From NCBI RefSeq assembly GCF_009389715.1, contig NC_052400.1:19809674-19873673 (forward strand): a stretch of 64,000 nt of DNA, read 5' to 3'. Shown here in pieces: positions 10,751 to 62,254 of this stretch; position 1 is the stretch's first letter; every line of letters begins with the position of its first letter. The notes under the pieces were generated by a model that was not told the DNA's origin, made no database searches, and worked only from the letters and a program-made list of their open reading frames with translations. The position numbers and the translations under genes were made by a program. This stretch comes from Phoenix dactylifera. Lineage: Eukaryota > Streptophyta > Magnoliopsida > Arecales > Arecaceae.

Positions 10751-11299
10751 CTACTTTGTTATAGCCGGAATGCAGCTCGAGCTCCTTGTGATGCCGCCCC
10801 TCTTCACGCTCCCCCTTTCCGTAGGGCTCCTAGACTTGGCCGTGGCCCCTGTTCCATCCAACCTCGATTTCCTCAGGATTTCCCTCATCGCCTCGGCCTG
10901 GAAGAGAACGGGATGCGTCCTTCCAATTCTGTTGAACCTCACACACACACTCATGTGGGTGTTGAGAGCTTCATCTAGCCTCCCCCCATTCTTTTCCACC
11001 TCCTCCTTCACGGCCTCCGAGCACAGCCCACATATCCACTTGCCGGAGAACTTCTCTCGGACACGGCGGATGTACTCAGGAGTGCACTCCTCGGACATGC
11101 CGCAGCACTCGCACTTGGCATCTTCCACTTCAGAGATGGGTGGAAGCTTGGTGTCTATTCCCTCTTTGCTTAGCTCAAAGGAGAGGTCAGAGATCGCCCT
11201 CTGAAGCCCCTCCATCGAGATCCTCCGGGGCTTCTGAGGCTTGTCAAAGCTTTTCCTTGTGTAGGAAGCAATGAGCGTTCCTCCTCCATTTAGTGCCAT
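10751..11299 (-). CDS. DUF1677 family protein
   Basis: Single-exon gene of 182 residues. The plant-specific DUF1677 family has no settled biochemical role. The conserved core is visible: CECCGMSEECTPEYI (Cys63, 65, 66, 72) followed by KWICGLCSEAVKEE (Cys90, Cys93), a cysteine arrangement that suggests metal binding (inference). A conserved helix-rich stretch with HMSVCVRF follows, and the tail is basic and Ser/Arg-rich, ending RSSSCIPAITK. I chose the ATG at 11,299 because it sits in a strong GCCATGG context; the frame extends about eight codons upstream but only from a TTG. A TATA box lies about 195 bp upstream of the ATG on the minus strand. No frameshift or internal stop is seen. Its neighbours on both sides are intergenic DNA. 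Confidence 0.9.
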   Translation of the reverse strand: MALNGGGTLIASYTRKSFDKPQKPRRISMEGLQRAISDLSFELSKEGIDTKLPPISEVEDAKCECCGMSEECTPEYIRRVREKFSGKWICGLCSEAVKEEVEKNGGRLDEALNTHMSVCVRFNRIGRTHPVLFQAEAMREILRKSRLDGTGATAKSRSPTERGSVKRGGITRSSSCIPAITK

Positions 11300-11490
11300 G
11301 GCAGACAAATGACTTTGAGCCAAGAAAATGATTTAAGGATACTCAGATGCCAGCAACAAGGAAACCTGAGAGAATCGGAGAACCAATTTGAGTTTGTAGG
11401 ATAGGATAGCAAAGGAATCTAGCTCTACTAATCAAGACATGAGATCAACCTTGGTTTCAATGTGAGGGAAGAAGGCCACCCTCTGGAACC

Positions 11491-13277: not shown

Positions 13278-13319
13278 GTTCACTACAAAAGAAAGGATAT
13301 CTCCCGGCACTTTTTTTGG

Positions 13320-13800
13320 TCTCTCCCGACGCTTTTAAGCGTCGGCGAATTTCCAGCCACGCATCGCAAAGCGTGGGTCAGACGTCGGGCAGGTGGGCGT
13401 GGGTCGGGTTTAACCCGACGCGTCAAAAAAGCGTCGTCGCTCTATGCCGACGCTTTTAAGCGTCGTTCATTTTATACAAACCCGACGCATAAAAGCGTCG
13501 GCGTACTTGAACCGACGCTTCCCACCGTATTTGTGTTGGACTATGCCGACGCTTTTAAGCGTCATTCATTTTATACAAACCCGACGTTTAAAAGCGTCAG
13601 CGTACTTCAACCCACGCTTCCCACCGTATTTTGTGTTTGACTATGCCGACGCTTTTAAGCGTCGTTCATTTTATACAAATCCGACGCTTAAAAGCGTCGG
13701 CGTACTTCAACCCACGCTTCCCACCGTATTTTGTTTTGGACTATGCCGACGCTTAAAAGCGTTGGTTTATGCTACTTGAGCGACGCAATAAAGCGTCGTT
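13320..13800. repeat. CACTA left subterminal array, exact 100-bp period
   Basis: Units beginning 'tatgccgacgcttttaagcg' start at 13,442, 13,542, 13,642 and (partial) 13,742, an exact 100-bp spacing. Each holds two or three copies of a near-palindrome, CGACGC-TTTTAA-GCGTCG or its AAAA variant. Similar boxes at the right end (near 19,075 and 19,125) point to a shared protein-binding site, as known for TNPA in En/Spm. Confidence 0.88.
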
Positions 13801-13809
13801 AAACATCAA

Positions 13810-14385
13810 ACCTATGGGTTGCGAACTTCTGGTAGTTGTGAACTTGAGGTTTGCTTTCTCTGTCTCTATATTGAAGACCACCAGCATCTTCACCATCCAA
13901 GGCTGATGGGTTAGAACGAGGAACTCGTTGCAGTCCTCCAGACAGGTGGGCATGCTGTATTTTCATCCAGACCAAAAAGATTTCTAGAAACAAGTGGATC
14001 AGTTCTTCTTTGAGTATTTCAATTTGAACAGGGTGTCCTATAATTGCTTTGCCATTCAATCTGCTCATCAGAGAAACCAGAGGAACATGCTCACCTTGAT
14101 AACTTGCTTGAACCTTCAAATCCACATCAAACAGCATAGGCCTCGTCCTGTCACTGAGACGAGCAGCATAAACTGTCTCATAACACTCGTCAGAATCTTC
14201 CTGGTATGCCCTACGAGCCACATGATATGGGCCTCCAGATTTCCAGACTGATGGGGAAATCATATGAGAATCATTGTCAGAATCTTTGAAGCTAATGTGA
14301 CTTCTCCCACGATCTCTAGCTGCTTTCAGAACAGAGGAATATCTTCGATTACCATACCCAGTCAATTCTGCACCACCCACATCCT
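13810..14385 (-). pseudogene. Captured fragment of a PWWP-domain (At1g51745-like) protein gene
   Basis: The minus strand encodes GGPYHVARRAYQEDSDECYE, then TVYAARLSDRTRPMLFDVDL, then HVPLVSLMSRLNGKAIIGHP. I recall this run from plant nuclear proteins of the Tudor/PWWP/MBT At1g51745-like group, in the part after the PWWP domain. The frame then slips: the expected text (DPLVSRNLFGLDENTA) continues in another frame near 14,000-13,960, and RVPRSNPSALDGEDAGGLQY returns in the first frame near 13,930. The piece therefore carries at least two frameshifts. The PWWP domain itself is absent. It lies inside the CACTA element next to the subterminal array. Family assignment is from memory of conserved text; the captured status follows from position. 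Confidence 0.65.
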
Positions 14386-14857
14386 TACCAATCAAATCAA
14401 CTTCATCACGAGCATAGTTAAACCTCATACATGAATCAACATAAATTACATAAATTACATAAATTACACTAGTCATCAGATCGCACTATTTCTCCAAATC
14501 AACATAAATTACATGGTTCATAGATATATTATATAAAGTATCATTTGGTTGAAGAGACATAGTTTGCCAAGAAGCACATCCATCATGGAGGCTAGACATG
14601 GAAAAGCAAGCACGTGTTACCTTAAAAACTAAGATTTACCAACAATCAGTGCAGCAGTAGCTCTGTTCCACTGCTTCCAACACTAATTATAACAAGGTAT
14701 GCATTTCTACACCACTGGGATTAGTAAGATAGAACAAGAAGTTCAGTACAGATGACACAAAACATTTAGTCTACGAATACATAAACCATCAAAGTAGCTT
14801 CCAAAAATTCCTGTGGCTTACTTCCACAGCTTACTTCCACTGCAACACCCCCCATTC

Positions 14858-15001
14858 TTACTTCCACAGCTTAACAGACTTGTCATGGCTAGCAGAGGCC
14901 ACCATTCCTGTGGCTTGTGACTGTGCCAATGCTGCAATAAGACCTTCGTGTGCCTGGACCGTCATGGTTTGGTTCTCTATCACATTCCACAGCTCCAAAG
15001 A
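14858..15001 (-). pseudogene. Captured last exon of LEUNIG-type corepressor
   Basis: LEUNIG and LEUNIG_HOMOLOG are Groucho/TUP1-like corepressors with C-terminal WD40 repeats. This 48-codon exon reads [20 protein letters not shown], then [20 protein letters not shown], then KSVKLWK and a stop, matching the very end of the LEUNIG WD40 domain. It begins right after a polypyrimidine-TTGCAG acceptor that is still intact (15,002-15,005). The exon itself is open and ends at the native stop. Nothing upstream of it in the CACTA element encodes the rest of LEUNIG, so it is a transposon-carried fragment. Confidence 0.82.
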
Positions 15002-15220
15002 CTGCAAGAATTGAAAGAATACAGAACAAAAATTAGCAAAAGCACACAATCAAGTAAAATGCAAACGATCAAGATTGCTGGCCAGCAAAATAGAACCACA
15101 AGAATGATCTATCAGGTTTCTCATGTATGACAAGTAGCCCTGCTAACCATCGAAGAAGAACAAGAGGAAGAAAAGCAAAATCTACAGTTTACTTTCATGA
15201 AGAAGATGTATTCCAGTTAC

Positions 15221-15280
15221 CTCATCTAGATCGTGGGAGTCAAGTCGTCCAGCCGGACTGCCTGTCCTGAAACCATGTTC
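15221..15280 (-). other. Unassigned 60-nt exon-like segment inside the CACTA element
   Basis: It is flanked by a TTGACAG acceptor and a GTAACT donor on the minus strand and is open in one frame for exactly 20 codons (EHGFRTGSPAG...DLDE); the other two frames contain stops. It lies between the SERINC and LEUNIG pieces in the same orientation. I do not recognise the protein. It may be a fourth captured gene. Confidence 0.45.
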
Positions 15281-15794
15281 CTGTCAAGTCAATATAGAAC
15301 ATACTAATTAAAGTCCTTTCCAAGATCTATACCCGATCATACTGCAACAACCGCCGCTGTTTTTTTAGTACCAAAAGCCTGCCTAATATTTTCAATAACT
15401 GCGGCTCCCAGTCCAACATGTAAAGCAGAAGAAAGCATACCTTCCTTCCGGCCGAGCAAACAGTAGGATTACCCAATACAAATTGTTCCCATTATCTAAA
15501 GTTTCAGAGAATGAAATCAAAGTTTACCCAGCAAATATTTGCATGTTGCCAGTGAATCATGCACAAGAAAGGATGACCATCTTACTGTTCAATTATGAAG
15601 CACCATGGTTACAATTCCAAACATTATAGCAACATCTCTATCATTCTTGAATCACACATAAGTTTAGCCTGCATCTATAATACAGATTCCTCCACAAATG
15701 CAGCATCGAGAGCTGTGTACAGAGACATGTACAGACTCAATGATACTGGACTTGGGTCCCAAATAATTATTGCATCCTTTTACATACTTGGGAG

Positions 15795-16085
15795 TCAGAA
15801 CTCCCTATCTGGGAAGAGAATGGGAGCAATTAGAGACCAGATGTAGAGAGCTGCTGTGGCCCACCCAGTCACAATCCTGACCCACACAGAGGGCCACCCA
15901 ACATCAACAAGCTTACCACTTTCACCAACGGACGTGGACCAGCCAGTAAGAAGCATAGCCGAGTACATGCTGGCAAGGGAGAAAATGAGGTGGAAGAAGG
16001 AATATGAATAGGAGACAGGCTTAGCCTCATCCTTCTTCCTGTCTTCCTGCTCCTCTACCTTGTCAAAAGGAAGCAAAGGCCTCTG
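15795..16085 (-). pseudogene. Captured C-terminus of a SERINC (serine incorporator/TMS) gene
   Basis: SERINC proteins are multi-pass membrane proteins. The minus strand encodes KPVSYSYSFFHLIFSLASMY, then SAMLLTGWSTSVGESGKLVD, then VGWPSVWVRIVTGWATAALY and WSLIAPILFPDREF with the native stop at 15,795. These are the last two membrane segments and the invariant PDREF-type end of plant SERINCs. The frame is intact. No upstream SERINC exons are present. It begins about 100 bp after the last transposase exon, so a transcript reading out of the transposase would run into it in sense. Confidence 0.85.
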
Positions 16086-16186
16086 GCATAATCGTATTTT
16101 GGAAATTGAGGTAAGTATCAAAAAAAAAATTTAAAACAATCTAAAAACATTCATCTCAAAATCGTAAGTACACAAACTACGATGTA

Positions 16187-16934
16187 TCAAGAGTCGACGG
16201 CATCATCATCTCTACGAGTAGATGAAGTATCAGCAACCTACAAGAAAAAAAATACTTTAGAAACTAAAAATACGGAAGTCATCACGCTCATACAAGAATA
16301 CATTATAATTATATAAAATATTCAAATATATTTAGTTATGTACCGGAGGAGCAAATCTCTGCAAAAAAGATGAAATATGGTCAAGCTGATCCTGCAAAGA
16401 TTGTATCTTCAACTCTTGGCTCTGCTTCAACTCCGCCATATCAGTCATATGACTCTGCCTCATCTCCTCTATCCTTGTCTCATATGACTGCTTTATCTGT
16501 GCCATCTCTGTCTTCAAACTACAAACCTCTGCAGTGCTAGTACCTTGTCTAGCATCTTGGGTATATCGGCTCACTGCAGACAGCTGAGTGGGGGTAACTC
16601 CGATACCGTAACCCCTCACCCGACCATAACGTTCTGGGCCCATCAATTCTGCATAGACCTGAGCCTCGACGCGACTGGCCGCGTCGGATGATGATGACTC
16701 TCCGACGCGCTCTGAAATGAGATTTGTAGCTCTTTCCTATATCTCTCTCAAAAAAATAAACAGTCACATTAATAATTTAAAGGAAGTAAAATTAATAAAA
16801 TAATTATGATCAAATAAAAAATGAATACATACAACTATATCTCTCGACTCGTCCCGGACAAAGCTGCCATCTCGGTGAGTGTGGGTCATCTTATAAAACT
16901 CTACCTCACCAGGCTCCCTTCCATGCTCTACTAT
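16187..16934 (-). pseudogene. CACTA transposase (Ptta/En/Spm type), C-terminal exons only
   Basis: Three exons join in phase on the minus strand. Exon a (16,934-16,833) reads IVEHGREPGEVEFYKMTHTH and ends DESRDIV. Exon b (16,736-16,344) reads ERATNLISERVGES... then PERYGRVRGYGIGVTPTQLS, followed by a heptad-like coiled coil (EMAQIKQSYETRIEEMRQSH). Exon c (16,237-16,187) reads VADTSSTRRDDDAVDS and a stop. This is the usual tail of plant En/Spm-type transposases (Transposase_24). All three exons are open with good splice sites, but the N-terminal and catalytic parts are missing to the right, so no active enzyme is encoded. Confidence 0.8.
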
Positions 16935-17236
16935 CTACACATACGGAAAGTATATTGCTAAACTATATATTATGATACGTGCTATATGTTAGTAGAGTTT
17001 CAAATAGTTTGAAACAAACTTACGAATTCATTTCTACGTCTCGCATAACTCTATACATCACGGGGGAAATGTGGTGCTATGCTCTTAGTCCCAAACGCAG
17101 CTATACATCACGGGGGAATTTGATGTCTCTTATTCATCGGCCATCTCGAAATGGTTAAACTAAAGGCGAACTAACGAGTTGGACAAATCTATTCTCTCCC
17201 TCTTCTGTAGATCTCTGTTTTATTTTGTCTGGCGGC

Positions 17237-17450
17237 TCACAGCCAGATTGTATTACTTGGGACCAACCTAACTAAAACCTGCAACGAACGATGCTAAAAA
17301 TTTCTACCCGGAACTGGACTGCCCACCCAAACCCACACTAAAATCACAGCCAGATTGTATTACTTGGGACCAACCTAACTAAAACCTGCAACCAACGATG
17401 CTAAAAATTTCTACGCGGAACTGGACTGCCCACCCAAACCCACACTGAAA
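17237..17450. repeat. 107-bp tandem duplication inside the CACTA element
   Basis: Two adjacent copies start 'tcacagccagattgtattac' at 17,237 and 17,344 and differ at only a few positions. A smaller duplicated motif, 'ctatacatcacgggggaa', lies just left at about 17,051 and 17,101. No coding role is seen. Confidence 0.9.
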
Positions 17451-18714
17451 TACCCAATTACCAGGAACATCAACCTATAATACAAAGTCTGCAACTCCAT
17501 GCTGATAAGGAAGGAATTGGGAACAAAGGCAGGCTGATGACGAGATCAAATCTAATCGCTGGAGCAAATGAAAGCGAACAGCCTGTTCAAAGTTGGAACC
17601 AAATTTCTGGTGGCAGAAGCATATTTTAAATCCTATTAGTTTTTCACAGCCCACTTTTGAGAATCCTTGACATCATAAGCGGTAGAAATAGCTACATAAT
17701 CTTGCACCGCTCGCTTCCTTCACTATTCCAACGTGTGCGCCGCAGCTGGATTCTGTTCATCCACGATACTGTCACTTTTCTGAATGCCAGTACCCAAGAA
17801 GCAGCAAGCCGGCAGGTGCAAATGAAGGCTGAACAATCACGGGACTCAGCATGTCTTAACCTGCTCTCATCCATCAGTTAAGAAGCAGACAGCACAGTTC
17901 TTTAAACAATTTCACTAATATAATATATTTACAAAAATTAGTTCATGAACTGTCATCAACCTTGACATGTTAATGCATCAACTTGATTTTAAATTATATT
18001 CATAACTAATTGTCCTAAAGCTGGCACTAAATAGTTGGAAAAAGGTTGATGGTTATGGTAGTCTGTAATTGATTGTCCAATAATCAATTAGAATTCCAGA
18101 AGATTGAATAAGAGGAAAACGCTCATTAAAAAATAAAAAAAAAACACTGACTCAATATGCACATACTCAGACTGTTCACTGCCAATAATTATCCATATAA
18201 AAAAAGGTGTGGAACATAAACCAGGTCGACAGCTGCTTTAAGGCCGAAAGTGCAATAGAACCAAATTAACATAATCCAATCTATCGGGGATTGAACTACT
18301 ACATCTTCAAGATTCTCAAAGCGGTTCCTGAATTAATGCAAGTAACGGTATAAATAAAATAGCATAGCACCAAAAGAATTGTGTCCTCAATTGTCATCTA
18401 CAACACCGGCTGCCCTTCTGATGATAACCATCTACCTTCAGCCTAAAAGTGACCAATATATCCAATTTTCTCTTAGTCAACATTTGAACGGGGTAGTTAG
18501 ATTGGATGCTAGGGCTCGATATAATGGAAGGAAATTATAGAATGGGAGTTATTTACGGATCTAAACATAAAAAATATAAAACATGAAATGATCTTTCCGC
18601 ACCTTCTTCGTCTCTTCATCATTTGTCATAGTATCTTAAGAAATTATAGTTCTTCATCTTTCTGTAAAGTATTTAGCTGACAGGAGAAAGAGGGGGCATA
18701 CCTCGAATCGGCGC

Positions 18715-19070
18715 TTCCAAAGAACAAGGAGAAGATCCTCGGGCGGAGAAGAAGCTCGATCAACGCTTGAGGGCCAATCGGTCGGAGCCGGAGAGGAGGG
18801 ACGAGGAGAAGATCCTCGGAAAGATCCTCGGGCGGAGGTGAAGCTCGCTCGAGGCTTGAAGGCTTGTCGGTTGACGCCGGAGAGGAGGGAGGAGGCTTGA
18901 GGACGGAGGCAGCCGCTCGTGCCGGAGAGGAGGGCTAGCTAGGGCTCGATCGGGTGGGTATTTGGGGAGGCGGAGAGCCGGAAAAGGAGGGTGGCTATTC
19001 GGGGAGGCGGAGAGCCGGAAAAGGAGTCCAGGCTAGGGCTCGATCGGGAGGGTCGTATTTGGGGAGGAGC
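18715..19070. repeat. GC-rich repeats at the right end of the CACTA element
   Basis: Phrases such as 'gagaagatcctcgggcgga', 'ggagaggaggga', 'ggggaggcggagagccgg' and 'ctagggctcgatcggg' recur two or three times. This matches a GC-rich subterminal region of a CACTA element, placed just inside the right terminus. Confidence 0.65.
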
Positions 19071-19419
19071 CACCGACGCTTCATTGAAGCGTGAGGAAAT
19101 GTGACGCCTGGGGTATTTTTTCCCGACGCTTGTGGATAGCGTCGGCAAAAAAGGGTCGCCTTTTCCCAATTTTTCTGTAGTGGTTCCAACTAGATCAAAC
19201 TAAATTTTGTTGAACTCGTGTCTGAGCTAATTTTAGGTCTGCCTTCCTTTTTCTGCAACTTTGCTTTTGGCTTCCTCTTAAATAAAAACTTTGCCCTTTT
19301 GTTCTAATCAAAACATAACTCGATTTTTATCACATGCATGAACAATTATGGAGTTAGGCATGTATTATCTCAAGAAAAGCGCCATGATCAGTTTATGTTC
19401 GGCACCAAATAAGTCTATA

Positions 19420-51365: not shown

Positions 51366-51807
51366 TGTAACAATTCAGGATCTCACCTAAAATGACTATA
51401 GCCGGAAGGTATTATTTGAGTTTCTTGATTCTGTATAAATACCCAAGATCTACCCAACAAATAACCAATATAGGACTAAACACACGCCCATACGGATCCT
51501 CACATACTTCTCTCATTTAAATCCTAACGTCCTCATCAGGCTAAGAGTTTAAATCTATTCAAATCTAATTACAAGCACCACAATCGGCCCATGGGTCAAC
51601 CCCAATATATCCGTATTATAGTGTTCCCTAGTCCACAGGTTATAAACTGGGTATGCTCTGATACCATTTGCAACAACTCAAGACTTCATCCAAAATGACT
51701 ATAGCCGGAAGGTATTATTTGGGTTCCTTGATTCTGTACAAGTATCCAAAATTTATCCAACAAATAACCGATATGAAAGTAAACATACGTCCCTACGGAT
51801 CATCACA
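51366..51807 (-). mobile_element. Complete-looking TRIM element
   Basis: Two LTRs of equal length, 139 bp (51,366-51,504 and 51,669-51,807), start TG(T/C)AACAA and end CATCACA/CCTCACA. The 164-bp interior carries a primer-binding site next to the right LTR: on the minus strand AAATGGTATCAGAGC, fitting initiator tRNA-Met. Flanking 5-bp repeats are CAAGT and CAAAT. With 442 bp and no coding sequence it depends on another element for movement. The LTRs differ at many positions, so the insertion is old. Confidence 0.88.
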
Positions 51808-52159
51808 CAAATTATCGTGATTAACTTGTGATGCCATTCGTCGGACCAAATGCACGCACCAATCAGCACATGATGACAGTAGAAGGATGCAAGCTATGTG
51901 GATTAACGTTATTGCTTAATGCCATCTGCTGACAAATCAGCAAATTTCTAGTGCTTGGATTATGTTAACATTCGGGGGTTGTGTGGCACCAGAGATAACC
52001 CCATCAGATTCAGAAAACTTGGATGGTAGAATTAGACTCTGCTACAAACCCAGAGCTTTGGCATCTGCTTGATTTGATATGATTTCCCCAAGGGTCGCGG
52101 ATTATTCATTTTGGGTCTCAATCACTGACTATTCTCCTATAATCCAAAGGCCCAATCAG

Positions 52160-52250
52160 GAAGCATGTAATAAAACTCCGAGGGGGGCCACGCTGAGATT
52201 TTTTAGCCATTCATACCGAAAAAGGCCACGCTGAGATCTTTTAGCCATTC
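52160..52250. repeat. 38-bp duplication
   Basis: The phrase 'ggccacgctgagat' followed by 'cttttagccattcatacc' (first copy with 'ttttt') occurs twice, near 52,186 and 52,226. Confidence 0.8.
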
Positions 52251-52339
52251 ATACCAAGATTATTTCGGTTGCTCCTAATCTAGAGTTATCTCAGCCATGC
52301 ATAAGCACAACTATGTGGTAGGCAGCGTTTCACATCACA

Positions 52340-52995
52340 ACTAGTTGTGGGCGGCTGGTCATTGGATCAGAGCCCACGCCCCAAAGGCAGCTATTTGCGC
52401 TAATCTTCCTCTAAACCAGCTAAAGTTCTCTTCATTTCTACTCGTAAATCCAGTTTTACTTTTGGTAGCTGTGGAGAAGAGACAAATGAACGCCAAACTT
52501 TGCTACTTCCCCGAGCTTTCTTCTCTCTCTTTTTCCTTGGGCTACGCTGCTTTAGACAAGTGCAATAAAACTAGTCAAGAAAGCCCTGCTCAAGAAAAAA
52601 AAGCAAGAGCCTTTTTGAATCGTAGATCCCTGCTTTTCTTTTGCTTCGAGTTGACAACGCATGCTTGCGGACTCTGAGGGCTAATGCCGATGGCATCGCT
52701 TTTCCTTGCGTTCACCACGGTGCGGTTACTGGATTACAATACCACTAGTGTTTTAATTGGGAAAGCAAAAAGGCCTCGTTGCCGCCCACTTAACCATACA
52801 ACTTTCTTTGCGAGCCAATTAGCGAAGGGCTCGAACCTGGTCCTACCACCCTGTGACTCCTCCCTTAAAGCTATAATTTTAGCTGTAGTAGCCATTGATG
52901 CAGGAAGATCTAGCCACGTGCCTACGACACCATTGCCTCTGGGTGGGCCCAAACCGAGCCTGGGCCAAAATGCCTCAGGGTTCAGACTCTAGACA
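52340..52995. other. Possible organelle-derived (mitochondrial-like) insertion
   Basis: Base composition is more balanced than that of the flanks, and there are two long plus-strand open frames (52,345-52,677 and 52,684-52,992) without family similarity. The texture resembles plant mitochondrial spacer DNA. This is an impression only. Confidence 0.25.
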
Positions 52996-53164
52996 CTGGG
53001 CACGGCTCGTGGGTCTCTATTCTGAGCCCCAGGCGAAATAGTTGCAGATCAGGCCTTATGGGCCATTGGGCCTGCCTAACCCATTGACATCTCTGAATAT
53101 GCTTGCATACTTGAGAAGGTTTCGATTTGAGGGTTATTGGATTTTTTTTTTCCGACAAGACAAG

Positions 53165-53588
53165 TGTGAGGACTTATGTGGGCATATATTTAGTCCCACG
53201 CCGATTATTCGCTGGATAGCTTTGGGGTACTTATATAGGATCAAGGAGCCTAAATAATACCTTTCGGCCAGATCATTGATTGTTACAAATAGTATCAGAG
53301 CGGATCCGACCCATAACCTATGTGAACTAGGAAACATTACAACACGGATCTATTGGTGCTGACATGGGCCGATTGTGGTACTTGTAATTATATTTGAATG
53401 GATTTAAACTCTTAGCTTAATGAGGATGTCAGAGCTTAAACAAGAAGAGTATGTGAGAAGCTGTGCAGATATGTGTTCAATTCTACATCGGTTATTTGTT
53501 AGATAAATTTTGGATGACTATATAGGATCAAGGAACTCAAATAATATCTTTCGGCTAGCCTTTTTAAGCGAGGTTTGGGGTTATCACA
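53165..53588 (+). mobile_element. TRIM element, plus orientation
   Basis: The left LTR is 53,165-53,287 (TGTGAGGAC...GTTACA) and the right LTR is 53,452-53,588 (TGTGAGAAG...ATCACA). A primer-binding-like 'aatagtatcagagcg' directly follows the left LTR. Flanking 5-bp repeats are ACAAG and AAAAG. It is the same family as the copy at 51.4 kb in the opposite orientation, non-coding and old. Confidence 0.82.
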
Positions 53589-55488: not shown

Positions 55489-58400
55489 ATGCCGGAGCTC
55501 CGCAGCGGAGTGCGCCGGGGCCGGGCACAGCCGAATCCGATAGTCCGGGCAGAGAAGCCAGTCGCCGGAAGGAGGAGGAGGGCGGTGAGGAACAGGCAGC
55601 AGGCGGTGGGGGGCGATGAGAACGTGGTGACGAGGTCGGCCGAGCGGAAGGAGGAGATCAGGTTTCTTGAGGGCGGAGGGGAGATCGGGGAGAGGAGGAT
55701 GGATGAGTTTGACTGTGGTGCGAGGAGCGCTGATAAGCTTCCTGGCGGGGAGGATGAGGGGAGCACTGCGCCGATCCCAGAAAAGGTAACCATTTCTTCT
55801 TTGAACAAGAATTCCTTTTGATTTTTAGCAATGTTTTCATCGATGTACAACAAATGTTGCAGCGGGGATTTCGCAAGTTTGGTTCGCATTAAAAATGCTA
55901 ACCTGTCCTTTCCAAGAAAAAAAAAAGAATTGTATCTTGTTTCATCTTGTGGTTCATTTCTCCGGGACTGAATGACTGGTTTAGGCACCCCCAGCCATTC
56001 TTTTCAGAGTTTTTCCTCTTTTGTACGGAATTTCCCCCTTCAATCTGGCTTTCACTTGTTTGATTTCGGATTCTTGGTATCAACAAATTTGTTCTTCTAA
56101 CTTTTTGCCTGGAGGGAAGATATTAAAAAAAATGAAACAACCATCAGACACCAAACTATTTTTAACCAAACGAATACCGTTAACATGACGACAATGCCTC
56201 ATTTAACATTTAGTATTTATGAGTTTAAGGTCCATCAAGAACCATATCTTCTGTCATGGTGAACTCCAGAAATTACTCAAACTACTTGTCTTATAATCTT
56301 TTATTAATGCTATTTTAAACTCTGCTAAATGCCCCATTTAAGGTTTCCTTCTTTCACAAATGCAGCTCATTTTCTGCTCATGCACATTCTATTTGGCTGA
56401 AGAACATTTATTATAAGATTCATGTCTAGAATAAGTTTCTTAGAATATTTACTTATGCAGAATTTGACAAGAAATTCTAACTGGTTATAGCCTATAGTCT
56501 GATAAGTCCACAAAGATGATATACCTTTTTTGGACCCTTGAGTCTTCAAAGCCAATTTATGTTCTATCTTTGAATTGCTCATTATATGTGCTGGCATATC
56601 TATATTATAGCTTGATATATTTTCTTTTCATGTGTCACTCTTTTCTATTTCTCCCTCTTTTTTAATCACCATTCTTGTAATTTTTCTAAAGAAGTGGAGA
56701 AATGAAATGCAGTCGAACAAAATATAGTTAATCATTATAATATTTTTATTAAAATTTCATTGATGCAATGTCTAGTTGGATTTATTATAAGAGCGTAGAC
56801 AAGGTGAGCATTCAATAGTGGTGAGACTTATGAAAAGAAATTAACCAGATTCATGCAAATAAGGTAATCATTAAATATAAATGAGACTTATAAGGAGAAC
56901 ATTAAGAGGGATCAGATAAGTGAGTAGGGGAGCAAGTGGATCTGCGGCAATACTACCTAGACACTTGGCATGTGTTCCAAGTATTTAGGTGTCGCTGAAT
57001 TCTTGGAACTTTAACCTCCGAAAATCCAGACATGGCTTCAGTTGCATACAATAATGATGGCGGAAAAGAACATTTTAAACTTTATTGGGGTTTTAAAAGG
57101 CGGTTACGATATGTGGGTGAGCAAGGGACCATACTGTGTATGTAAGTATTCGGTTGCAAATGTAAATTGGGGCTTGTCCTAGTGGGCACGCTTGTTTGCT
57201 TAGTGACTAAAGGTTTTAGTTTTATTTCTTGAATGGTGCATCCCAAAGAATTAGGATTTGGGTGGCTATAGTTCAGGCAGGCATCCTCTCCCCTTATCTA
57301 AAAAAATAATAAATAAATAAAATATATTAAATATAATAAAAGAAAGGGTAAACATTTTTTTGGATAAATAATAGCAATATTAGTGATAACAACCAATAAT
57401 TAGTGTTTAGTACCTAATACTAATGACCAAATAGTAATAGTTACAACACAACTAATATGTTAGTATTATTAATAGCTATATTTAGAGAGGGTGGGCTTTG
57501 GTGCAATGGTAAGGTTGCTCCACTGTGATATAAAAGTCTTGTGGGCCCCCGTCAATTTCTTTAAGTTTCATTTTTGTGAACGTACTCCTCAGGTGGGATA
57601 CTTAGTATGTTAGCTACAACACTGCACGGGTCGATACACACAACGCCTAGTATCCATCGTTTACGGTTAGGACTACTGGGGTATCTAATCTCATTTACTC
57701 CCCTAGCTTTCGTCTCTCAGTGTCAGTGTCAGTGTCGGCCCAGCAGAGTGCTTTCGCCATTGGTGTTCTTTCCGATCTCTACGCATTTCACCGCTCCACC
57801 GAAAATTTTCTCTATTGGCTTTGCTAGGCTAGTTATCTGAAGTCAAGCCTTGGACTTAGAATGAAATTGTGACCCATCTTTGGTTGAAAGCCTGGCTCCT
57901 TCATAGTCCGCAGCAGATAGAAGAAGGGTAGGTTTGTGATTCATACCATATGGCTTGCTATTTCATTCGGTTTGAAACATAAAAACAACCTCTCCAAGGG
58001 TAGGGTTGCGTGCATCTGATGCTCCCCAAACCTTGCCATGGCAAGAGCCTCGCGTACTAGGATGTTCTTTTTATTAATAGCTATATGCGGCTTTGTAGAA
58101 ATCAACATTCAGCCTAACCTTAGCTTAAACCTGCTCCATCTTTAAGAGCTCACATGAGAGTAGGCTGATATGTGCCTGCACAATACTGTGGACCACATTT
58201 TTGGTTCATATAGGAAATGTGGCGCAGTCAAGTAATTGCATCTGCATAGGCGGCTAAATGGCATCCACATAGGCGCATTGCATTTTGAAACACTGAATTT
58301 TATTGTAAAGCTTTTATTTAGGTAATTCTAAAGTAGGTTCTAGGGTCTTGTTTTAACTAGGATTAGTGTGCAACAGTCCTACTTTTGGTTCTTCTAACTT

Positions 58401-61400
58401 TTTGCCTGCAAGGAAGATATAAAAAAAAAAATGAAACAACCATCAGACACCAAACTATTTTTAACCGAATGAATACCGTTAACATGACGACAATGCCTCA
58501 TTTAACATTTAGTATTTATGAGTTTTAGGTCCATCAAGAACCATATCTTCTGTCATGGTGAACGTCCAGATATTACTCAAACTACTTGTCTTATAATCTT
58601 CTATTAATGCTATTTTAAGCTCTGCTAAATGCCCCATTTAAGGTTTCCTTCTTTCACAAATGCAGCTCATTTTCTGCCCTTGATCATTCTATTTGGCTGA
58701 AGAACATTTGATTATATGATTCATGTCTAGAATAAGTTTCTTAGAATATTTACTTATGCAGAATTTGACAAGAAATTCTAACTGGTTATAGCCTATAGTC
58801 TGATAAGTCCACAGAGATGATATTACCTTTTTTGGACACTTGAGTCTTCAAAGCCAATTTATGTTCTATCTTTGAATTGCTCATTATATGTGCTGGCATA
58901 TCTATATTATAGCTTGATATATTTTCTTTTCATGTGTCACTCTTTTGTATTTTTCCCTCTTTTTTTAATCACCATTCTTGTAATTTTTCTAAAGAAGCGG
59001 AGAAATGAAATGTAGTCGAACAAAATATAAGTAATCATTATAATATTTTTATTAAAATTTCATTGATGCAATGTCTAGTTGGATTTACTATAAAAGCGTA
59101 GACAAGGTGAGCATTTAATAGTGGTGAGACTTATGAAAAGAAATTAAGCAGATTCATGCAAATAAGGTAATCGTTAAATAGAAATGAGATTTATAAGGAG
59201 AACATTAAGAGGGATCAGATAAGTGAGAAGGGGAGTAAGTGGATCTGCGGCAATACTACCTAGACACTTGGCATGTGTTCCAAGTATTTAGGTGTCGCTG
59301 AATTCTTGGAACTTTAACCTCCGAAAATCCAGACATGGCTTCAGTTGCATACAATAATGATGGCGGAAAAGAACATTTTAAACTTTATTGGTGTTTTAAA
59401 AGGCGGTTACGATATGTGGGTGAGCAAGGGACCATACTGTGTATGTAGGTATTTGGTTGCAAATGTATATTGGGGCTTGTCCTAGTGGGCACGCTTGTTT
59501 GCTTAGCGACCAAAGGTTTTAGTTTTATTTCTTGAATGGTGCATCCCAAAGAATTAGGATTTGGGTAGCTATAGTTCAGGCAGGCATCCTCTCCCCTTAT
59601 TTAAAAAAATAATAAATAAATAAAATATATTAAATATAATAAAAGAAACGGTAATCATTTTTTTGGATAAATAATAGCAATATTAGTGATAACAAATTAG
59701 TACCTAATACTAATGACCAAATAGTAATAGTTACTATACAACTAACATGTTAGTATTATTAACAACTATATTTAGAGAGGGTGGGGTTTGGTGCAATGGT
59801 AAGGTTGCTCCACTATGATATAAAAGTCTTGTGGGCCCCTGTCAATTCCTTTGAGTTTCATTCTTGTGAACGTACTCCTCAGGCGGGATACTTAACGCAT
59901 TAGCCACAACACTGCACGGGTCGATACACACAGCGCCTAGTATCCATCGTTTACGGCTAGGACTACTGGGGTATATAATCCCATTTACTTCCCTAGCTTT
60001 CATCTCTCAGTGTCAGTGTCAGTGTCAGTGTCGGCCCAGCAGAGTGCTTTCGCCGTTGGTGTTCTTTTCGATCTCTACGCATTTCACCGCTCCACTGAAA
60101 ATTTTCTATGTCAACTTTGCTAGGCCAGTTATCTGAAGTCATGCCTTGGACTTAGAATGAAATTGTGACCCATCTTTGATTGAAAGCCTGGCTCCTTCAC
60201 AGTCCGCAGTAGATAGAAGAAGGGTAGGTCTGTGATTCATACCATATGGCTTGCTATTTTATTCGGTTTGAAACATAAAAATAGCCTTTCCAAGGGTAGG
60301 GTTGCATGCATCTGATGCTTCCCAAACGGGCCGGTACGACATACCCTGATATGCAGCTTTGTAAAAATCAACATTCAACCTAACTGTTAGCTTATACCTG
60401 CTCCATCTTTAAGAGCTCACATGATAGTAGGCTGTTATGTGCCTGCACAATGCTGTGGACCACATTTTTGGTTCATATAGGAAATGTGGCGCAGTCAAGT
60501 AATTGCATCCGCATATGTGGCTAAATGGCATCCACAGAGGCGATCACGTGCATTGCATTTTGAAACACTGAATTTTATTGTAAAGCTTTTATTTAGGTAA
60601 TTCTAAAGTAGGTTCTAGGGTCTTGTTTTAACTAGGATTAGTGTGCAACAGTAGTCCTACTTTTGGTACATATTGGGTTGGATTTTAGGTGTCAACCTCT
60701 ATATAGGATAATGTGCAATTCTGAATTCTGCAATTTAGGGAAGATCTTGGTTGTCCATGTAAAGATTGGATATTATTTTTCAAGAGTTCTAGTTTACTTG
60801 TAAATCAAGTTGTGTAAAAAGCTAGGTAGGCCCTATGGTTGGTCATCAGGGGTATGCATGTGTACTATTGGAATGAATGAATGGTTTCTATTGGCCATGT
60901 TCAGCCCTTTATATCCTCTCTCTCTTCCCCTCCTCCTTGATTACCCTTATCTACTTCTATTTTTTCAAATTTTTACTAACATAATCTATCCTTCCATTCT
61001 TCTAAACCTCACTTTTCCTCACATTTTCTGCGGAAGTTAACTTGTGCTAGCTAAATTTTCTGTTGTACGATTATTACAGACAATCACCAATTGAGATATT
61101 ACATTTAGAAACTGATTCTTAGGATCCATATATCCTCTCAAAGCATAAACCGTAATTTTCTTGGACTTTATGGTCTTAATATCATAGGAACTGTGCATTT
61201 TAGGAAAGATTTTGGCTAGAGACTGAATAATTGCTTTCCAAGAGTTCCAGGTTACTTGTGAATCTAGTCATGTAAGAGCTATCAAAGGGCCCTATAGCTG
61301 GCCATTAGAAGTATACTGCATGAACTATTTCAATGAATGAAAGGTTTCAGTTGGCCATGTTCAGCCCTTTCTATTCTCTTTCTCTTCCCCTCCTTGATCA

Positions 61401-62254
61401 CTCGCATCTACCTTTATTTTTTCTGATCTTTACTAATATTATCTATCCTCCCACTCTTCCAAACCTCAGTTTTGCTCTTATTTTCTGCATAAATTGACTT
61501 CTGCTAGCTAAATTTCTGTTATGAGATTATTACAAACAATCACTAATTAACATATTATGTTTAGAAACTTACTCTTGAGATCCATATCTCTTCTAAAAGC
61601 CTAAAACATAATTTTGTTGACCTTTATGGTTTTTAAGATTAGTTAAATCACCTCTTCTGCCCTGTTTTCTGTAATATGACAACAAGGTGATTTCTTCACT
61701 TAAATCCTTGTTTAGTCCCTTCCTGAGGTGCACCTATTGCCTTCGCAGGCCACCCTTAAATGGTCCTGCATCAAATTCAATCTATAAAAAAAATAAGTAT
61801 CTTAAGATATGCTGATGACTAGTTAAGATCCCTTTTTCAATAGGCCTTACATTTATGCCAGATTAACATTAAATAAAAATAGGTGTTACATCTCCGTAGA
61901 AAACTCTACACTTTAAAACTAGTACTGTTAGTGGTAATATGGTTGCAAACTCAAGTGTCATCAAATGCGATAAGGTGCTTTTTGATAAGACACCCAAAAA
62001 AGTGCGAAGTACCTACAATTCTAGCAGATGTGAGACACACCAAATTTGTAGTATAATGGTTTGCCATATTATGTTGTATTAAAGTGCCTAAAAGTATTTT
62101 TACACTTCAAAATTTTCAATTAAGAGAATTAAGATCTACCCTGATTAATTAGGTTATATGATAGAGAGGGAGGGTGACAAGAGTGGAATCTTTTCTAGAG
62201 TTCAGTTATATCAAAAAAGAGGGCTAAGATTAGTATTGATTAATTAGGACTGAC

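Follow-up and report, generated by a model that had tools for sequence, protein, structure and literature searches.

A truncated CACTA transposon in Phoenix dactylifera that very probably holds pieces of at least three host genes

Does the CACTA transposon on contig NC_052400.1 of Phoenix dactylifera carry pieces of several unrelated host genes, and does it make any use of them? We addressed both questions in a stretch of 64,000 nucleotides (the window; all positions count from its first letter), following up an earlier note made from the letters alone. That note had described a transposon with three captured gene pieces lying in sense behind its transposase exons, and had proposed that they give a chimeric RNA as well as small RNAs acting on the parent genes. 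Our analysis points very probably to a CACTA (En/Spm) element that is non-autonomous, has lost internal sequence and contains genomic DNA of three or more host genes, a cargo that is most likely passive.

The element occupies positions 13281-19182 (5,902 bp). Its left end, CACTACAAAAGAA, and its right end, read on the other strand as CACTACAGAAAAA, agree at 11 of the 13 terminal bases and at 13 of 20 over a longer stretch, and GTT flanks the element on both sides. The window contains 28 CACTAC...GTAGTG pairs at spacings of 100 to 20,000 bp, and a 3-bp duplication was found only here; one other pair is alike at 12 of 13 terminal bases and lacks a duplication. Of the 13 CCGACGC motifs in the window, 12 fall inside the element: the left end has nine, the right end two and the transposase one. 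The left end also contains a 100-bp unit repeated 3.2 times in tandem (13442-13762). These terminal inverted repeats, the 3-bp duplication, the subterminal repeats present at either end and the Transposase_24 sequence described below are those of the CACTA (En/Spm) superfamily. The matched ends and the GTT duplication that had been read here are borne out, and 13281-19182 is a genuine CACTA element, whose insertion at this site would have created the duplication. No second copy was detected within the window (blastn, E up to 0.001).

What remains of the transposase gene lies on the minus strand. Taken singly, the two frames that hold exons B and C (16764-16934 and 16332-16736) gave weak Transposase_24 matches in Pfam (6.6e-6 and 1.8e-5; 26.8 and 25.3 bits), just below the family cut-off of 28.7. 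Joining exons B, C and D at consensus splice sites yielded a match of 1.4e-17 (64.6 bits), and joining the end of exon A to B and C one of 5.5e-20 (72.4 bits). Because the joined exons exceed the cut-off, the joins between A, B and C are supported, and with them the C-terminal transposase exons already proposed for this locus. The introns are phase-0 and measure 89, 96 and 106 bp; the stop falls at 16187-16189, or at 16332-16334 if the last intron is retained. Read along the gene, similarity to Transposase_24 sets in only at about 17050, where an 18-bp direct repeat adjoins it as a possible deletion junction, and the remainder of the gene is missing. Catalytic Transposase_21 had no match when all 72 open reading frames (ORFs) of at least 40 amino acids in the element were searched against Pfam, a set that does not cover exons shorter than 40 amino acids. 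With Transposase_21 not found and the rest of the gene missing, the element is a truncated, probably non-autonomous CACTA and most likely a deletion derivative needing help in trans; the transposase of a relative would mobilise it, and the cargo would ride along.

Behind the transposase stop, toward the left end, lie a SERINC piece, a WD40 exon and a third piece, all in sense with the transposase. The first two were recognised as parts of unrelated host genes through Pfam and the Protein Data Bank (PDB), the third through its open frame only. The SERINC piece (16082-15795) matched its Pfam family at 8.8e-32 over profile positions 347-434 of 434, thus through the final residue, and two solved SERINC3 chains in the PDB at 1.6e-16 and 2.2e-16. 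Its frame is unbroken, an openness equalled in 31 of 1000 Markov shuffles, and the C-terminus with its stop codon stands as first described.

The second piece is a single WD40 unit (1.8e-5; 25.6 bits against a curated Pfam cut-off of 27) that also matched many solved WD40 proteins in the PDB. Directly upstream are a splice acceptor, TTCTTGCAG, and intron DNA, and since the exon keeps this intron DNA, the piece was copied via DNA; a spliced RNA was not its source. From its resemblance to the C-terminus of LEUNIG, the exon is putatively the last one of that gene. The WD40 unit, the acceptor and the TAA stop agree with the claim made for it, but the name itself was not confirmed, the databases returning WD40 only. 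Judged by titles, a literature search on CACTA elements and LEUNIG gave no paper on such a capture.

The third piece belongs to a 210-codon open sense frame (13811-14440), a length reached in none of 1000 Markov shuffles; it is therefore likely a coding relic. It had no match in Pfam and none below E=0.097 in the PDB. We presume it to derive from a PWWP protein of the At1g51745-like kind, since it seems to agree with that family over 14407-14012; after 14012 frameshifts are probable. Here, too, the earlier note held up in part, as to the long sense frame, while the name PWWP found no confirmation in either database. The missing database match and the putative nature of the family name would suit a different account, in which the frame codes for a protein of this CACTA family, or of some other element, and the donors number only two. 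We consider this very improbable, as the frame sits behind the transposase stop and two host pieces, and its CpG observed/expected ratio of 0.35 resembles that of the other pieces (0.22 in the second, 0.16 in the first) and not that of the transposase (0.99).

The ratio reaches 1.87 and 1.07 at the ends of the element, and the stretches separating the pieces have only 0.22 and 0.41; the element is a mosaic in composition. All three pieces are apparently 3' gene ends and would be copies of genes located elsewhere. Within the window, none of the three peptides has a match other than itself (tblastn, E up to 1); they are thus not parts of intact genes there, an origin that in the earlier note would have refuted the reading. 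Several points weigh against our explanation. The ratio of 17065-18690 (0.61) equals that of the window, and low CpG may be a general trait of 3' gene ends; the WD40 match stays just under its curated cut-off; and two of the three donor names, LEUNIG and PWWP, are putative.

The gene pieces could also have arrived with another element, such as a Helitron, that inserted into an ordinary CACTA. The borders of the pieces are not fixed without their parents, and Helitrons, too, carry gene pieces (PMC4290129). Against such an origin, which we regard as unlikely, the pieces are enclosed by matched ends and a single GTT duplication, and their surroundings showed no sign of further terminal structures, although Helitron ends were not searched for. 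The coordinates of the element's features are collected in Table 1.

Table 1. Coordinates of the CACTA element's parts, from its left to its right end.
Feature	Positions	Strand	Basis or remark
Left GTT of the 3-bp target site duplication	13278..13280		
Left terminal inverted repeat, CACTACAAAAGAA	13281..13293	+	11/13 bases agree with the right end
Left subterminal repeat region with palindromic CCGACGCTTTTAAGCGTCGG-type motifs	13326..13810		
Third piece, likely C-terminal coding relic	13811..14410	-	Open frame
WD40 protein last exon, stop TAA at 14858-14860	14858..15001	-	Pfam, PDB, splice acceptor directly upstream
SERINC 3' flank and, preceding the WD40 exon, putative intron DNA	15002..15794	-	Border between the two not placed
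SERINC C-terminus, stop TGA at 15795-15797	15795..16085	-	Pfam and PDB sequence
Transposase exon D, with the final 16 codons and the stop	16187..16237	-	Splice consensus alone, outside the Pfam match
Transposase exon C, end of Transposase_24 and coiled-coil-like tail	16344..16736	-	Pfam
Transposase exon B, Transposase_24	16833..16934	-	Pfam
Transposase exon A, 3' remnant	17024..17050	-	Similarity from profile position 41-42 of 138
18-bp direct repeat, 17051-17068 / 17101-17118	17051..17118		Adjoins the end of transposase similarity
DNA without Pfam match or long frame	17119..18690		Longest sense frame reached in 765/1000 shuffles
GC-rich right end (60% G+C), tandem repeats and right subterminal motifs	18691..19182	-	
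Right terminal inverted repeat	19170..19182	-	Comparison with the left end
Right GTT of the 3-bp target site duplication	19183..19185		

A fourth donor was sought with the same 72 ORFs and is not claimed. The remaining Pfam matches did not reach the cut-offs and resemble chance matches: LPD37 (E=0.012), CC_CEP152-bind (0.13), UL11 (0.0051), DUF3780 (0.0071), DUF4820 (0.34) and VEG (0.072), together with coiled-coil and other families on exon C. The frame at 15337-15468 had a PDB match of E=1.6 only, and the length of the longest frame of 15281-15500 was reached in 151 of 1000 shuffles; neither was accepted as a donor. A 60-nt segment (15221-15280), preceded by AG, followed by GT and open in one frame, is a possible exon of a further captured gene and had no Pfam match. 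In the unassigned DNA toward the right end (17119-18690), which may also be captured, a 107-bp unit is present in two tandem copies of 97% identity (17237-17450). A plasmid search with 14858-16090 returned no match, as expected for plant DNA.

The nearest gene found around the element is a DUF1677 frame on the minus strand (10751-11332), about 1.95 kb away. Six of the 18 ORFs of at least 150 amino acids were put to Pfam, and a position of the element within an intron is possible. Farther off, a tandem duplication of about 2.28 kb (56088-60667, comprising 56088-58389 and 58384-60667) has pieces that are 94.3% and 92.5% identical. Each copy holds a 508-517 nt piece of 16S rRNA on the minus strand that spans Rfam RF00177 model positions 1-1533, so that most of the middle has been lost; the duplication is probably organelle DNA in the nucleus. 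Adjoining it is a direct repeat of about 400 bp with 80% identity (60777-61630), and a short stretch beside the duplication is presumably tRNA-like and SINE-like. Two arms of about 280 bp, 78% identical and 1.6 kb apart, form an inverted repeat pair (51399-53557) that is possibly another transposon.

A transcript might start at the GC-rich right end if a promoter is active there, and a first exon could end at the candidate splice donor found in that end (18702/18701). A bacterial promoter scan was not applicable to a plant and was not used. Chimeric RNA running through the element is plausible from the sequence. As the transposase stop precedes the cargo, the pieces would then be 3' untranslated region (UTR) and not part of a fusion protein. 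Each 3' gene end may moreover bring its own poly(A) site, which would make a single RNA through all pieces less likely than shorter ones. No pair of inverted repeats of at least 14 nt is present in the cargo (13811-16090), and hairpin-derived small RNAs are therefore not expected. Small RNAs could possibly arise from general transposon silencing; nothing in the sequence, with its sense cargo and no such repeat, points to the small RNAs against the parent genes that had been suggested.

The closest precedent is Tgm-Express1 of soybean, a CACTA of 5.7 kb that holds pieces of five unrelated host genes (Zabala and Vodkin 2007, PMC1947982). At its locus, 11 of 12 distinct cloned transcripts held more than F3H exons, and at soybean wp, with Tgm-Express1 in an intron, spliced chimeric RNAs are formed (PMC1947982). 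This precedent, and the consensus splice sites of the transposase remnant behind which our pieces lie in sense, would favour a chimeric transcript with a function of its own, or a control of the SERINC, LEUNIG and PWWP parents by small RNAs. So would the report that pieces captured by Helitrons, Pack-MULEs and Sireviruses are siRNA reservoirs in maize, in a passage where CACTAs are not named (PMC13317346). We nevertheless think such a function quite unlikely: the transposase stop stands before the cargo, the cargo has no inverted repeat, and the isolated Tgm-Express1 transcripts all began at the promoter of the host gene F3H1, not in the element (PMC1947982). A passive cargo remains the most likely state.

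The date palm element resembles Tgm-Express1 in size (5.9 versus 5.7 kb), in carrying several unrelated host pieces and in keeping exons together with introns. It differs in having three pieces instead of five and in its location, Tgm-Express1 lying within an F3H1 intron and being transcribed from F3H1 (PMC1947982), whereas the nearest gene found here is about 1.95 kb off. Three donors in about 2.3 kb, rated a high load in the earlier note, thus fall within the known range. In grapevine, the transposase of Cactavine-5 is followed by coding sequence and 3' UTR from a host gene; they lie in antisense and one donor is described, unlike the three sense pieces here (PMC2528002). Host gene fragments also occur inside CACTAs of Chenopodium and of wheat chromosome 3B, where 140 capture events were counted and 17 genes possibly arose by exon shuffling (PMC4290129, PMC8978399). 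The Chenopodium pieces are 5', upstream of ORF1, and ours are 3' of the Transposase_24 gene (PMC8978399).

Like Pack-CACTA and other Pack-TYPE elements, ours has class II ends and a target site duplication around coding DNA from multiple loci (PMC8903248). Among Pack-TYPE elements of maize, Pack-CACTAs hold the most distinct captured loci, and in rice only the Pack-Mariners were found to include multi-locus elements in significant number (PMC8903248). Under the packFinder rule, an element with a transposase match is termed 'autonomous' (PMC8903248). Our element contains host DNA but, unlike a Pack-CACTA, also retains a Transposase_24 remnant, and by that rule it is not a Pack-TYPE element in the strict sense.

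As to how the cargo was acquired, the element or an ancestor would have taken up host DNA into the interval that separates its left end from the 3' end of the Transposase_24 gene. Gap repair after excision is one route by which transposons capture DNA, and the element could have copied from other loci while an excision gap was being repaired. In this connection, the Chenopodium paper names a mechanism of Rubin and Levy (PMC8978399). Alternatively, neighbouring insertions could have been excised jointly with the intervening DNA, as described for two neighbouring elements after Catoni 2019 (PMC8903248, PMC13317346). The evidence favours neither gap repair nor joint excision. Short repeats do lie at junctions (17 bp at 14817/14857 and 18 bp at 17051/17101); we did not use them as a mark of gap repair, since 17 rows of such local repeats were recorded outside the element.

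That all three pieces look like 3' ends in sense is slightly unusual. The shared orientation would arise in 1 of 8 cases if orientation were random and gives no evidence of design. It is highly improbable, in our estimate, that the element gains from borrowed host 3' UTRs or poly(A) sites behind its transposase stop; if it did, its transcripts would have host-like ends and be sheltered from silencing. The finding changes no principle, a multi-donor CACTA and chimeric transcripts through it having been published in 2007 (PMC1947982). It adds a CACTA element with host gene pieces that is cleanly annotated and useful for counting sense 3'-end captures.

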